NCBI RefSeq assembly: GCF_020166105.1 | Contig: NZ_JAIUJY010000005.1 | Coordinates: 248,001 to 312,000, forward strand | From: Blastococcus sp. LR1 | Lineage (GTDB): Bacteria > Actinomycetota > Actinomycetes > Mycobacteriales > Geodermatophilaceae | Length of the DNA stretch: 64,000 nt | Direction: 5' to 3' | In this document: in pieces, positions 15,368 to 27,298 of the stretch | Position numbering within the stretch: position 1 is the first letter of the stretch | Layout of the letters: every line of letters starts with the position of its first letter | Program-made: the position numbers and the translations under genes | Notes under the pieces: model-generated | The model's input: the letters and a program-made list of their open reading frames with translations, nothing else | What the model was told of the DNA's origin: nothing | Database searches by the model: none

Positions 15368-15427
15368 GTGCCTCGCACCAGCATGCCCGCAGACGCCCGC
15401 ACCAGCGGCGTCCTCGTACTCGCCTAG
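15368..15427 (+). CDS. ilvB leader peptide (attenuator peptide)
   Basis: A 19-residue open frame, VPRTSMPADARTSGVLVLA, starting at GTG and ending at TAG. Its last codons are GTC-CTC-GTA-CTC-GCC, i.e. Val-Leu-Val-Leu-Ala. GTA is a rare codon in this genome, which would sensitise the ribosome to charged tRNA-Val. The stop codon is next to the first of two hairpins, the second being a textbook terminator. This arrangement is that of a ribosome-mediated attenuator controlling acetohydroxyacid synthase by valine and leucine. Too short for routine gene calls. Function is inferred from the layout. Confidence 0.75.
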   Translation: MPRTSMPADARTSGVLVLA

Positions 15428-15490
15428 CGCGTCCGGTCACCGACCGACGCGCTGACCCTTCGTGCCCGCGGGCACGAGGGGTTTTTTGTT
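15426..15490 (+). terminator. ilvB attenuator: two hairpins and T-run
   Basis: The first hairpin is AGCGCGT-C-CGGTC (15426-15438) paired with GACCG-ACGCGCT (15442-15453). The second is ACCCTTCGTGCCCG (15455-15468) paired with CGGGCACGAGGGGT (15469-15482), a 14-bp stem with one G-U, followed by TTTTTTG. T-runs are rare in this genome, so a regulated terminator is likely. The segment AGCGGCGTC in the leader codons could pair with GACGCGCT at 15446-15453 as an alternative fold. Confidence 0.8.
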
Positions 15491-23141: not shown

Positions 23142-24164
23142 ATGCGCCTGGCAGTGATCCCCGGAGACGGCATCGGTCCCGAGGTGGTGGCGGAGGGCCT
23201 CAAGGTCCTGCGCGCCGTCGCCCCCGATCTGGAGACGACGCCGTACGACCTCGGCGCCGCGCGGTGGCAGGCCACCGGGGAGCTGCTGCCGGACACGGTG
23301 GTCGACGAGCTCCGCCAGCACGACGCGATCCTGCTGGGTGCCATCGGTGACCCGGGCGTTCCGCCGGGGATCTTGGAGCGCGGCCTGCTGCTGCGGCTGC
23401 GCTTCGAGCTCGACCACCACGTCAACCTCCGGCCGGCGCGGCTCTTCGACGGCGTGCGCAGCCCGCTCGCGTCGCCCGGGCCGATCGACATGCTGTGCGT
23501 GCGCGAGGGCACCGAGGGGCCCTATGTGGGCAACGGCGGGGTGCTCCGCAAGGACACCCCGAACGAGGTCGCCACCGAGGTCAGCCTCAACACCGCGTTC
23601 GGCGTCGAGCGGGTGGTCCGGTACGCCTTCGAGCGGGCCACCGCCCGCCCCCGCAAGCACCTGACGCTGATCCACAAGACCAACGTGCTCACCCACGCCG
23701 GCGGTCTCTGGTCGCGGATCGTCGAGGAGGTGTCGGTCGAGTTCCCGGAGGTGACCGTCGCCTACCAGCACGTCGACGCCGCCTCGATGTTCTTCATCAC
23801 CGACCCCGGCCGGTACGACGTGATCGTCACCGACAACCTGTTCGGCGACATCGTCACCGACGTCGCCGCGGCCGTGACCGGTGGCATCGGCCTGGCGGCC
23901 AGCGGGAACCTCGACGCCTCGGGCACCAACCCGAGCATGTTCGAGCCGGTGCACGGCTCGGCGCCCGACATCGCCGGCCAGGGCATCGCCGACCCCACGG
24001 CCGCCGTGCTGTCGGTCGGGCTGCTGCTGCAGCACCTGGGCCGCACCGAGCAGGCCCGCAAGGTCGACGCCGCCGTCGCCTTCGACCTCTCCACCCGGGA
24101 CCCGCAGGCGACGATCCGCACCACCGACGTCGGCGACCGGCTCGCCGCCCTCGCGGGGGGCTGA
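23142..24164 (+). CDS. leuB: 3-isopropylmalate dehydrogenase
   Basis: Oxidatively decarboxylates 3-isopropylmalate (leucine route) and, in the citramalate route, 3-methylmalate to 2-oxobutyrate. 340 residues, short actinobacterial type. Seen: [16 protein letters not shown] at the N-terminus, [23 protein letters not shown] with the catalytic Lys, [28 protein letters not shown], and [15 protein letters not shown] for NAD binding. It follows serA by 16 bases. Both its usual uses fit the leuCD and cimA genes in this window. Confidence 0.96.
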
Positions 24165-24168
24165 GCGC

Positions 24169-25137
24169 GTGCGCCTGTTCCGGCGTCCGCTCGCCGAGGA
24201 CGACTTCTGGGGGCTGATCGCGGTGGCGGAGGGGCGCACCGACGAGGCGGCGATCGGCCGTCTGACCGACGCCCTCAGCGCACGGCGCGCCAAGGACGTC
24301 GTCGCATTCCAGGAGCGGCTGGCCCGAGTGCTGTTCGAGCTGGACCGCGAGGTCCTCGCCGACCAGCCGGTGCGGTTCGGCGACGATCCGCCCGACGAGG
24401 AGCCGATCCCGCTCAGCGACGACGGTTTCCTGTATCTCCGCGCCGGGATCGTCCTCGCGGGCAGGGAGACCTACGACCGGGTGCTCCGCGATCCTGCCGT
24501 CCTCGCCCAGGGCGAGTGGGACGAGTGCGAGGACCTGCTGTACGTGGCCGAGGAGGTCCTGGGCGACGACATCGACACCAAGGTGTCGTACGAGACGGCC
24601 TCCAACCTGCAGCACTGGACGCCGCGGGCAGAGCCAGAACGCGAGCCGTGGGACCAGGGGCTCCGCTCGGTCTCCGTGGATGCCCATGACATGGCCGACC
24701 CCATCGAGGCGGAGCGGCCCACCGCGGACGGCGGCTGGGAACCGGAGATCATGTACGTCGCTCCCAGATTTCTCGGGAGCAGCCTCCTCTACGACGTCTC
24801 CACCGATCTCGCCCGGATCGTGACCACGAACGGTGGGCTGCCGGGGGAGCTGGCCGCCGGGCACGTGGTGGCGGTGGTGGAGCTCGGCGAGTCCTGGCGA
24901 CTCGAGCCGCAGGTGGGAGAGCCGACCCGCTCGGAGCTCGGTGACCACCGCGAGCTCACGGTGCGCGTCGCCGTGCCCACCGCCACGGTCCGCGGCTGGA
25001 CGACCGGGGAGCGCCGGACCGGGTTCGCCTCCCTGGCGGCCGCGTGCCTCCTCGCGGTCCTGCCGACGACCCATGCCGCCGTCCCCGGGCTGGAACGACT
25101 GCGTGCGGCGGGCGAAGGACTGCTCGCCGGCGGCTGA
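24169..25137 (+). CDS. DUF4240-domain protein with unassigned C-terminal half
   Basis: A 322-residue protein directly after leuB (4 bases). The first 130 residues fit DUF4240: DDFWGLIAVAEGRTDE, VVAFQERLARVLFELDREVL, then DDGFLYLRAGIVLAGRETYDRVLRDP and LLYVAEEVLG. The second half (about 150-322), with LLYDVSTDLARIVTTNGG and RTGFASLAAACLLAVLP, matches nothing I recognise; it ends in an Ala/Leu-rich helix. The GTG start has no convincing ribosome site and may depend on leuB translation. Role unknown. Confidence 0.75.
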   Translation: MRLFRRPLAEDDFWGLIAVAEGRTDEAAIGRLTDALSARRAKDVVAFQERLARVLFELDREVLADQPVRFGDDPPDEEPIPLSDDGFLYLRAGIVLAGRETYDRVLRDPAVLAQGEWDECEDLLYVAEEVLGDDIDTKVSYETASNLQHWTPRAEPEREPWDQGLRSVSVDAHDMADPIEAERPTADGGWEPEIMYVAPRFLGSSLLYDVSTDLARIVTTNGGLPGELAAGHVVAVVELGESWRLEPQVGEPTRSELGDHRELTVRVAVPTATVRGWTTGERRTGFASLAAACLLAVLPTTHAAVPGLERLRAAGEGLLAGG

Positions 25138-25138
25138 G

Positions 25139-25519
25139 TCACCCCTGGGGCGGCTCCGTCAGCAGGAGGTCCCCGACCGGCACGGGCAGCAGCGCGCGGC
25201 CGGTCTCACCGGGTGCGGGCCACTCCGGGCGCACTGTGCAGCCGGTGGGGGAGGACTCGACCAGCACCACCGGCTGCCAGTTCCAGTCCGCCTTCGGCTC
25301 GTCGGCCGGCAGGACGCCGGGTGGCAGCGGAGCGGGCAGCCGGGCCCACCAGCGACGGTCGAGCGCGGCCAGCCCGTGCGCCCGCAGCAGCTCGACGCCG
25401 TCCCCGGCCGGCGCGGGCAGCAGCGCCCCGGTCAGCAGGCGGGGGCCGCCGGTGGCGTCCAGCCAGCCCACCTGTTCGCCGTCGGCGCGGTGCACAGCGG
25501 TCCAGTCCGGGGGGAACAC
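25139..25519 (-). CDS. Small conserved-type protein of unknown function
   Basis: A 126-residue protein with no signal peptide or membrane helix. Trp/Pro-rich segments (DWTAVHRADGEQVGWLDATG, WWARLPAPLPPGVL, WNWQPVVLVES, VRPEWPAPGETGRALLPVP) suggest a beta-rich fold. Convergent with the DUF4240 gene, one base between the stop codons. GTG start. I do not recognise the family. Codon use is normal for the window, which supports it being a real gene. Confidence 0.55.
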   Translation of the reverse strand: MFPPDWTAVHRADGEQVGWLDATGGPRLLTGALLPAPAGDGVELLRAHGLAALDRRWWARLPAPLPPGVLPADEPKADWNWQPVVLVESSPTGCTVRPEWPAPGETGRALLPVPVGDLLLTEPPQG

Positions 25520-25573
25520 CGCCGGAGCCTCTCAGGGACGGAGGTCGCCGCGCGCGTGCTTTACTCGTCGGCG

Positions 25574-25603
25574 ATGACCGCTCCCAGCACGATTATCACC
25601 TAG
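25574..25603 (+). CDS. cimA leader peptide with Ile-Ile codons
   Basis: A nine-residue frame, MTAPSTIIT, ATG to TAG. It carries two adjacent isoleucine codons, ATT-ATC, just before the stop. ATT is very rare in this GC-rich genome. A perfect 8-bp hairpin starts at the stop codon, and a terminator with a T-run follows, 94 bases before the cimA start. This is the layout of a ribosome-mediated attenuator sensing isoleucine, and supports reading the downstream gene as citramalate synthase. Inferred from layout. Confidence 0.7.
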   Translation: MTAPSTIIT

Positions 25604-25657
25604 CGCGCAGTTCCCTCCGACTGCGCGCAGACCTCCCGTACCCGGGGGGTCTTTTTG
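25603..25657 (+). terminator. cimA attenuator: two hairpins and T-run
   Basis: GCGCGCAG (25603-25610) pairs with CTGCGCGC (25621-25628) around a 10-base pyrimidine-rich loop. AGACCTCCC (25629-25637) pairs with GGGGGGTCT (25644-25652), nine pairs with one G-U, followed by TTTTT. The same order (leader, hairpin, terminator) is seen before ilvB. Confidence 0.78.
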
Positions 25658-25696
25658 TTTTCCGGGACAGCCCCCACCCGATCCGAGGAGCCCTCC

Positions 25697-27298
25697 GTGC
25701 CCAGCGATCCCGAGTTCCAGGTCTTCGACACCACGCTGCGCGACGGCGCCCAGCGCGAGGGCATCAGCTACTCGGTCGCGGACAAGCTCGCGGTCGCCCG
25801 GCTGCTCGACGAGATCGGCGTGGGGTTCATCGAGGGCGGTTGGCCGGGGGCGCTGCCCAAGGACACCGAGTTCTTCGCCCGCGCGCGCACCGAGCTCTCG
25901 CTGCAGCACGCCCAGCTGGTCGCGTTCGGCGCCACCCGCAAGGCCGGCGTGCCGGTGGAGGACGACCTCCAGGTGCGGGCCCTGCTCGACGCCGGCACGC
26001 CGGTGGTCTGCCTGGTCGCCAAGTCCGACGTCCGGCACGTGCGGGAGGCGCTGCGGACCACGCCGGAGGAGAACCTCGCGATGGTGGCCGACACCGTCGC
26101 CTTCCTGGTGGCGCAGGGCCGCCGGGTCTTCCTCGACTGCGAGCACTTCTTCGACGGCTACGCGGCCGACCGTGACTACGGCGTGCAGGTGCTGGAGACG
26201 GCGTTCGCGGCGGGCGCGGAGGTCGGCGTCCTCTGCGACACCAACGGCGGGATGCTGCCGATGGGCGTGGGCCGGGTGGTCGCCGACGTGCGGGCCCGCA
26301 CCACGGGGAAGCTCGGCATCCACTGCCAGGACGACACCGGCTGCGCGGTGGCCAACACCCTCGCCGCCGTCGAAGCCGGGGTCACCCACGTGCAGGGGAC
26401 GGCGAACGGCTACGGCGAGCGCGCGGGCAACGCCGACACGTTCGCGCTGATCGCCAACCTGGTCACCAAGATGGGCATCCCGGCGGTGCCGGCGGACTGC
26501 CTGCCGGAACTGCAGCGGGTCAGTCACGCCATCGCCGAGCTCGCCAACATCGCCCCCGACGACCACCAGCCCTACGTCGGGGCGTCGGCGTTCGCGCACA
26601 AGGCCGGCCTGCACGCCAGCGCCATCAAGGTGAGCCCCGAGCTCTACAACCACCTCGACCCCGCCGTCGTCGGCAACGACATGCGCATCCTGGTCACCGA
26701 GATGGCCGGCCGGGCCTCGATCGAGCTCAAGGGCCGGGAGCTCGGCGTCGACCTGTCCGGCCAGGCCGACGCGATCGGGCGGGTCGTGGACCAGGTCAAG
26801 GTGCTCGAGGCCGACGGCTGGTCCTTCGAGGCTGCCGACGCCTCCTTCGAGCTGCTGCTGCGCGCCCAGCTGCCCGACGCCCCGGCGCCGCTGTTCGAGC
26901 TGGAGAGCTATCGGACCTCCGTCGAGCACTGGGGCAACGGGGTCGTGGTCAGCGAGGCCACCGTGAAGGTGCACCTCCGGAACGACGACGGGACCAGCGA
27001 GCGGATCATCAGCACCGGCGAGGGCAACGGGCCGGTGAACGCCCTCGACAACGCGCTGCGCCAGGCGCTGGTCGGCCGGTACCCGCAGCTGGCCGGGGTC
27101 TCGCTGGCCGACTACAAGGTCCGCATCCTCGGCTGGAAGGGCGGGACCAGCGCGACCACCCGCGTGCTCATCGACACGACCGACGGGGTGGGCACGTGGA
27201 CCACCGTCGGCGTGCACGCCAACATCGTCGAGGCGTCCTGGCACGCCCTCGTGGACGCGCTCGCCTACGCGGTCCTCCGCCGGCCCGCTCAGCCGTAG
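25697..27298 (+). CDS. cimA: Citramalate synthase (2-isopropylmalate-synthase family)
   Basis: Condenses pyruvate with acetyl-CoA to (R)-citramalate, entry to threonine-independent isoleucine synthesis. 533 residues. N-terminal HMGL-like TIM barrel (VFDTTLRDGAQREG with the metal and catalytic residues at about 10-22; CDTNGG; HCQDDTGCAVANTLAAVEAG), then a LeuA dimerisation domain (about 410-530) that binds the regulatory amino acid. The citramalate rather than isopropylmalate assignment rests on the subfamily pattern and on the Ile codons of the leader. GTG 25697 has GAGGAG six bases upstream; an in-frame TTG at 25655 lies in the T-run and is rejected. Confidence 0.9.
   Translation: MPSDPEFQVFDTTLRDGAQREGISYSVADKLAVARLLDEIGVGFIEGGWPGALPKDTEFFARARTELSLQHAQLVAFGATRKAGVPVEDDLQVRALLDAGTPVVCLVAKSDVRHVREALRTTPEENLAMVADTVAFLVAQGRRVFLDCEHFFDGYAADRDYGVQVLETAFAAGAEVGVLCDTNGGMLPMGVGRVVADVRARTTGKLGIHCQDDTGCAVANTLAAVEAGVTHVQGTANGYGERAGNADTFALIANLVTKMGIPAVPADCLPELQRVSHAIAELANIAPDDHQPYVGASAFAHKAGLHASAIKVSPELYNHLDPAVVGNDMRILVTEMAGRASIELKGRELGVDLSGQADAIGRVVDQVKVLEADGWSFEAADASFELLLRAQLPDAPAPLFELESYRTSVEHWGNGVVVSEATVKVHLRNDDGTSERIISTGEGNGPVNALDNALRQALVGRYPQLAGVSLADYKVRILGWKGGTSATTRVLIDTTDGVGTWTTVGVHANIVEASWHALVDALAYAVLRRPAQP

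Follow-up and report, generated by a model that had tools for sequence, protein, structure and literature searches.

In the trp, his and ilv attenuators of enterobacteria, a leader peptide with codons for the end product precedes a terminator, the position of the translating ribosome acts as the sensor, and an antiterminator shares a strand with the terminator. In actinobacteria, Seliverstov et al. (2005, PMC1262725) described leader peptides and terminators upstream of ilvB in Corynebacterium, Mycobacterium and Streptomyces, and the part of that paper covered here states that the mode of ilvB regulation is unclear. The same source presents the LEU element of actinobacterial leuA as a pseudoknot, in which the run of leucine codons pairs with the Shine-Dalgarno box to form the base stem. 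For Corynebacterium, Narunsky et al. (2023, PMC10272879) described the ilvB-II motif, with a reporter expressed strongly in minimal medium and weakly in rich medium according to the accessible sections of the article. Furthermore, eight leader peptides of Streptomyces lividans TK24 (leuS, leuA, trpE, trpS, alaS, ilvB, metN and thrS) appear in the available part of PMC8079986, and PMC12452182, as far as its accessible text goes, deals with the T-boxes of Bacillota.

In the window, i.e., the whole 64,000-nucleotide stretch of Blastococcus sp. LR1 analysed here, a leader comparable to these systems precedes cimA (Table 1). It resembles the ilvB leaders of PMC1262725, going by the part of that paper covered, in its short ORF, branched-chain codons, U-run terminator and actinobacterial host, but the gene is ilvB in those systems and the leader described here carries a run of Ile codons. 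Similarly, it shares with ilvB-II, as presented in the accessible sections of PMC10272879, an upstream ORF with branched-chain codons, a hairpin (P1) and a terminator (P2); however, the ORF of ilvB-II spans most of P1, whereas the cimA hairpin begins at the stop or shortly after the Ile codons. The loop-shoulder antiterminator of ilvB-II is also not general among the cimA leaders, where C-rich loops are found in the family of the window and in a few others. The leuA LEU leader, in the portion of PMC1262725 covered, has end-product codons and belongs to the same pathway family, but is described as a pseudoknot, unlike the cimA leader. The TK24 leader ORFs, in the part of PMC8079986 available, are like that of cimA in being short, mostly leaderless and furnished with cognate codons. 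The words cimA and citramalate are absent from the texts of PMC1262725 and PMC8079986. The sequence-only reading knew of no description of a cimA leader and, coherently, none was found in the searched literature, which covers few subscription journals.

Table 1. Positions of the cimA leader, its ilvB counterpart and the neighbouring genes in the window
Feature	Position	Strand	Basis or remark
Probable extended -10 promoter element, TG-C-TTTACT	25557..25565	+	sequence reading
Leader ORF, MTAPSTIIT and stop	25574..25603	+	read directly; 9 codons and stop
Hairpin 1, GCGCGCAGTT / GACTGCGCGC, loop CCCTCC	25603..25628	+	folding, alignment covariation; proposed to be sensed by the ribosome
Predicted intrinsic terminator, AGACCTCCCG-TACC-CGGGGGGTCT then TTTTGTTTT	25629..25661	+	sequence, folding, covariation
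cimA, citramalate synthase, GTG start	25697..27298	+	TIGR00977 protein model
DUF4240 protein gene	24163-25134	+	between leuB and cimA
Divergent ORF	25139-25519	opposite	no Pfam or NCBIfam match; between leuB and cimA
ilvB leader, same layout (ORF, hairpin, terminator)	15368..15488	+	R1 match, E 1.6e-7

The leader reads ATG ACC GCT CCC AGC ACG ATT ATC ACC from 25574, with the stop TAG at 25601-25603, and its two Ile codons are adjacent (ATT 25592-25594, ATC 25595-25597). Hairpin 1 consists of 10 bp (25603-25612 with 25619-25628) and opens on the G of TAG, the last base of the leader stop. The terminator adjoins it directly, with a spacer of 0 nt, and has a stem of 10 bp (25629-25638 with 25643-25652) followed by the T-run stretch TTTTGTTTT. 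The three elements that the sequence-only reading had placed here, namely a nine-residue frame with neighbouring ATT-ATC codons, a hairpin at its stop codon and a terminator with a T-run ahead of cimA, are indeed present, the terminator by sequence and folding.

The promoter element sits 8 nt 5' of the leader ATG, and motifs like it precede the leader in many members of the genus of the window. Among 123 leaders (L100, L130, L044 and L138 excluded, as in the codon-swap counts below), a [TC]ANNNT hexamer was found 3-12 nt 5' of a start in 81, of which 57 at 6-8 nt. Up to four starts were tried per leader, while the control used one displaced position per leader and found between 5 and 25 cases among 122 leaders at most, so the test and its control are not fully equal. 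The hexamer of the window itself deviates from the placement seen in the wider set. On the basis of the promoter-like element, the leader transcript is expected to be leaderless or near-leaderless.

The composition of this DNA makes such an arrangement conspicuous by chance standards, as had been argued from the rarity of both the ATT codon and T-runs. ATT accounts for 0 of the 76 Ile codons in five hand-chosen ORFs of the window and for 15/466 in the ORFs of 31 cimA genes, against which it is enriched in the cimA leaders (102/257). Runs of at least five T occur only twice in the 64 kb, both strands considered: at 25652, in the cimA leader, and at 15482, in the ilvB leader. The core pattern TAGCGCG-N(8-26)-GCGCAGACC is found once in the window, with 0.00 occurrences expected from 100 shuffles, and the same holds for GGGGTCTTTTT (one occurrence, 0.00 expected by shuffling). 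The region 25530-25720 folds with a z of −3.47, and none of 200 shuffles was equally stable. A chance origin is, as supposed, unlikely.

The gene behind the leader is a citramalate synthase and not LeuA. Its product, read from the GTG at 25697 that GAGGAG precedes, matches TIGR00977 at 2.8e-180 and 600 bits (cut-off 450), whereas the 2-isopropylmalate synthase (LeuA) models reach at most 233 bits, with their own cut-offs at 455 or above. The preference for CimA over LeuA, which had been drawn from the leader, is therefore backed independently by the protein model. The Streptomyces cimA gene is presumably the one with locus tag SCO5529.

Then, we evaluated the conservation of the leader among relatives. 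A cimA match over the cut-off was present in 84 of the 97 genomes searched, and these, together with a split gene (G087), gave 85 upstream stretches; one match below the cut-off (G069) was left out. A TAGCGCG-type hairpin start with at least one Ile codon within the last six codons was found in 67/85 stretches. The model R1, built solely from 16 cimA leaders that are also among its matches, recognised 70/85 stretches at 47 bits or more, adding L081, L084 and L086 to the leaders found by pattern; one stretch gave a weak match (L065, 23.5 bits) and 14 gave none. In the genome of the window itself, the only significant R1 matches were the cimA leader and the ilvB leader. Six order-level relatives (L005, L006, L007, L009, L036 and L053) have a single Ile codon in the last six, a point against the attenuator reading. 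In nine of the 14 stretches with no leader, only 26-91 nt separate the stop codon of leuB from the conserved TTLRDG motif of cimA; in four others the gap is 143-240 nt, and the last showed no leuB stop. In the stretches with a leader that also showed leuB (25/71), the distance was 192-443 nt; leuB was detected by a loose motif, so all these distances are approximate. This pattern would fit a loss of the leader when cimA joins a leuB operon.

The position of the Ile codons relative to the hairpin is strongly conserved. Taking S as the first paired base of hairpin 1, an Ile triplet is found at S-8 in 86, at S-11 in 95 and at S-14 in 57 of 119 distinct leaders (L100 and L130 excluded), while no other offset between 3 and 30 has one in more than 10. 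When S was taken from the model alignment, Ile stood at these offsets in 63, 77 and 36 of 95 leaders and in nine at most elsewhere, and all 95 have an Ile triplet within the 17 nt preceding S. The stop falls inside the hairpin in some families, as in MFYGLLIIGRRAG followed by its stop (L107-L110), with the Ile-to-S distance unchanged; thus, what is conserved is the position of the codons relative to the hairpin and not that of the stop.

Both helices covary. In the alignment A4 (95 distinct sequences), which was fitted to the structure and so leans toward it, two-sided changes affect 14 of 21 pairs (6/10 model pairs in hairpin 1 and 8/11 in the terminator) and 95.7% of cells pair; none of 500 shuffles reached either value. 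The structure-free MAFFT alignment A2 showed two-sided changes in 7/21 pairs, again with 0/500 shuffles, while the number of further pair types in A2 was no excess over shuffles, 423 of 500 reaching it. The locus thus carries a conserved short ORF with end-product codons at fixed in-frame offsets before cimA, and a terminator, by sequence and folding, between this ORF and the gene, as in leader-peptide attenuators. The sequence-only reading had proposed aligning the regions upstream of cimA and would have been contradicted by a lack of conserved frame and hairpins in relatives. This did not occur, since frame and hairpins are kept in 70/85 stretches, the helices covary and the Ile codons are fixed in position.

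A second leader of the same layout lies in front of ilvB in the window. Its ORF, which has two candidate in-frame starts, ends in GTC CTC GTA CTC GCC TAG (stop 15425-15427), and the R1 alignment spans 15410-15488. The model, in whose training no ilvB leader took part, found a full leader (E up to 1.7e-4) at all 30 of the best-scoring ilvB loci, that of the window included, taken from 60 genomes searched. At S-11, 25 of 26 distinct ilvB leaders have Val, mostly the rare GTA, and one has Leu, whereas the cimA leaders have Ile in 105/117, Val or Leu in 6/117 and other residues in 6/117. A Fisher test of this contrast, leaving out the six cimA leaders with other residues, gives 1.3e-22, a value that cannot be taken as a real probability because the sequences are related. 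Ten leaders of the codon-swap set, without Ile at S-8, S-11 or S-14, were read one base shifted, which biases the set toward Ile; the offsets derived from the model alignment do not involve this choice and give the same picture. At S-8 the 26 ilvB leaders show no such uniformity, with Leu in 10, Val in 8, Ile in 6 and another residue in 2. The codons therefore track the pathway, since leaders of the same layout hold mostly Val or Leu where those of cimA hold Ile. The match between the encoded amino acid and the product of the citramalate route, pointed out from the sequence alone, is borne out, and amino-acid-specific sensing draws its strongest support from this natural exchange of codons. 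A leuA-like gene of the same genome, named by eye (L002, about 600-647), is also preceded by a GTG-started frame, VRGSLLLTRRGEALS and stop. With this frame, three branched-chain genes of the genome (cimA, ilvB and the leuA-like gene) each have a leader with fitting codons.

At the level of the class, R1 matches (E up to 0.01, ilvB-type matches counted too) were obtained in 228/394 genomes and 95/137 genera. The best 29 ranked loci (L097-L125, three genomes of which had been seen before) all precede a cimA-type TTLRDG start, and so do 36 of 40 further loci hand-chosen across families from the listed ranking, the other four (L135, L148, L154 and L159) being without the cimA motif by pattern. In one genus (L126, L151 and L164) hairpin 1 is far longer, about 70 nt, and still abuts the terminator. 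An exact pattern scan of named genome contigs, free of any codon requirement, returned at least 118 stretches. Among the 118 matches listed, 102 precede cimA; each of these has Ile among its last five codons, with two or more Ile codons in 100 of them. Five of the 16 other listed matches have at least two Ile codons and a T-run, and were perhaps cut before the gene, while the remaining 11 look like chance.

In the phylum sample, R1 matched 43/296 genomes (E up to 0.001). Twenty places outside the class were inspected, and 13 were assigned to genes by eye and motif. They include a leader with four Ile codons before cimA (L323), Leu-coded leaders before leuA-like genes (L315 and L332) and at least six ilvB-like genes behind leaders (L314, L317, L318, L319, L329 and L331). 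Ile/Val-coded leaders of the same layout were also observed before leuB-like genes (L322, L325, L328 and L330), which possibly belong to leuB-cimA operons; pieces of two of these leuB-like genes match the 3-isopropylmalate dehydrogenase model, under its whole-protein cut-off.

Taken as a whole, the element is very probably a ribosome-mediated transcription attenuator, through which the transcription of cimA would follow the availability of charged tRNA-Ile. The comparisons above give good support to attenuation controlled by the ribosome, and control by charged tRNA-Ile is what we infer from the codons. Transcription would start at or just 5' of the leader ATG, and the ribosome would translate the nine codons. 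With Ile scarce, it would stall at the ATT/ATC pair, its front edge close to the base of hairpin 1, and this hairpin could stay folded; with Ile plentiful, it would reach TAG and cover the 5' arm, so that hairpin 1 would open and the terminator would form freely. Given the usual ribosome footprint, a ribosome held between S-8 and S-14 would extend to about S+4 to S-2, and one at the leader stop would cover the entire 5' arm of hairpin 1.

How a folded hairpin 1 would prevent termination is a separate matter. Hairpin 1 and the terminator have no common base and are compatible helices that can coexist, so the textbook switch is missing: in the enterobacterial trp, his and ilv leaders the two structures share a strand, whereas here they merely abut. 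An antiterminator sharing a strand with the terminator, as in the classical trp type, was looked for across the leaders as a class-wide feature and was not found; the sequence-only reading had not named one either. Pairwise column covariation in A4 likewise returned the two known helices and isolated column pairs only (e.g., 9-84), with no further helix. Two other pairings were considered and rejected by eye: an antiterminator made by lengthening hairpin 1 into the terminator (CU/AG, with one A bulged), the 3' side of which is altered without compensation in L048, L076 and others, and a pairing of the upstream GGACGGAGGTC with the 5' arm of the terminator. The element GGACGGAGGTC lies 5' of where transcription probably starts, and the relatives compared did not show it.

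We favour the reading in which the abutting hairpin 1 itself would block the terminator: folded and without a spacer, it would take up room at the RNA exit channel and impede the closing of the terminator base. The proposal comes from the geometry: hairpin 1 is placed as an antiterminator should be, and would be folded at the stall and open at the stop. Of 134 parsed leaders, 116 have a spacer of 0 nt between hairpin 1 and terminator, 11 one of 1 nt and 7 one of 2 nt (the parser allowing 0-4 nt, and at least three rows, L100, L130 and L044, being misparsed); among the 109 distinct leaders left once the misparsed rows are removed, the corresponding counts are 92, 11 and 6. In L138, the same parse places the Ile codons at S-10 and S-13. 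The ilvB leaders count against this step: their spacer is 0, 1 and 2 nt in 4, 9 and 4 of 17 leaders (17 of the 26 distinct), thus an exact zero spacer is not required there. Against the attenuator reading, in the S. coelicolor ilvB leader substitutions of the candidate codons were without effect on regulation, according to the part of PMC1262725 covered. No published effect of an abutting hairpin on terminators was found, including in the accessible parts of PMC11087558 and PMC8355165. More broadly, it is conceivable, and we advance it tentatively, that Actinomycetota share one attenuator module for cimA, ilvB, leuB and leuA, in which an abutting hairpin folded at the stall would block terminator closure at the RNA exit channel without an alternative fold, and specificity would change by swapping the codon cassette alone.

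For this last step only, an antiterminator of the ilvB-II type would be an alternative, with the loop of hairpin 1 pairing with the right shoulder of the terminator during the stall, a model published for Corynebacterium (PMC10272879, in the sections available). In the window, the loop CCCTCC and the 3' arm pair with the G-run of the terminator at −13.5 kcal/mol, the terminator duplex being at −18.6. Against random loops, the z of the pairing is −4.9 in the window and falls as low as −6.1 among its family members, where the real loops of L017, L022, L035, L042, L062 and L072 beat their own shuffles by 3 to 4 kcal/mol; outside the family, the loops of L010, L069, L125 and L158 stand out (z −2.3 to −2.8). 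However, the mean z over 110 distinct leaders (L100 and L130 excluded) is −0.8, with C-rich loops mainly in the family of the window; many loops of 3-5 nt have no complement to the shoulder, and no covariation favours the pairing. In the window itself, shuffled loops do equally well (−13.8), so its signal is one of C-richness. We consider this pairing unlikely as the general solution of the last step, although it may operate in the family of the window and in a few other leaders. A main action on translation or pausing (coupling, a polymerase pause or a ribosome brake) in place of termination is much less probable still. Judging from the usual footprint and the offsets, hairpin 1 would indeed be the first structure encountered by a ribosome at the Ile codons, and it could pause RNA polymerase, a role compatible with termination; but the predicted T-run terminator is conserved together with the leader, 5' of the cimA start.

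The remaining explanations leave out the leader peptide altogether. A T-box, a riboswitch or a protein-binding leader might account for helices whose sequence is conserved along with their pairing. Nevertheless, when the whole window was searched with the Rfam covariance models, three tRNAs alone reached the gathering score, and no T-box or other cis-regulatory family of Rfam scored above its gathering cut-off; relaxing E to 10 brought up six unrelated families, with 12-16 bits against cut-offs of 41-55. The conserved in-frame codon run also points to translation, and such a leader is highly improbable. The DUF4240 gene is on the same strand and ends at about 25134-25137, roughly 490 nt 5' of the terminator, which could then simply close an upstream transcript and have a short ORF beside it by chance. 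We give this almost no credence: an ORF on the opposite strand lies between that gene and the leader, and frame, codons and helices are jointly conserved before cimA in other families and classes. Ribosome-mediated attenuation is thus the reading we retain.

If it is true, the citramalate route of actinobacterial isoleucine synthesis would gain a control at the RNA level for which we found no description. The leader also marks cimA genes independently of the protein, which is useful where CimA and LeuA are confused. Furthermore, a genome that has both leaders, that of cimA and that of ilvB, would offer a ready-made natural codon-swap experiment.
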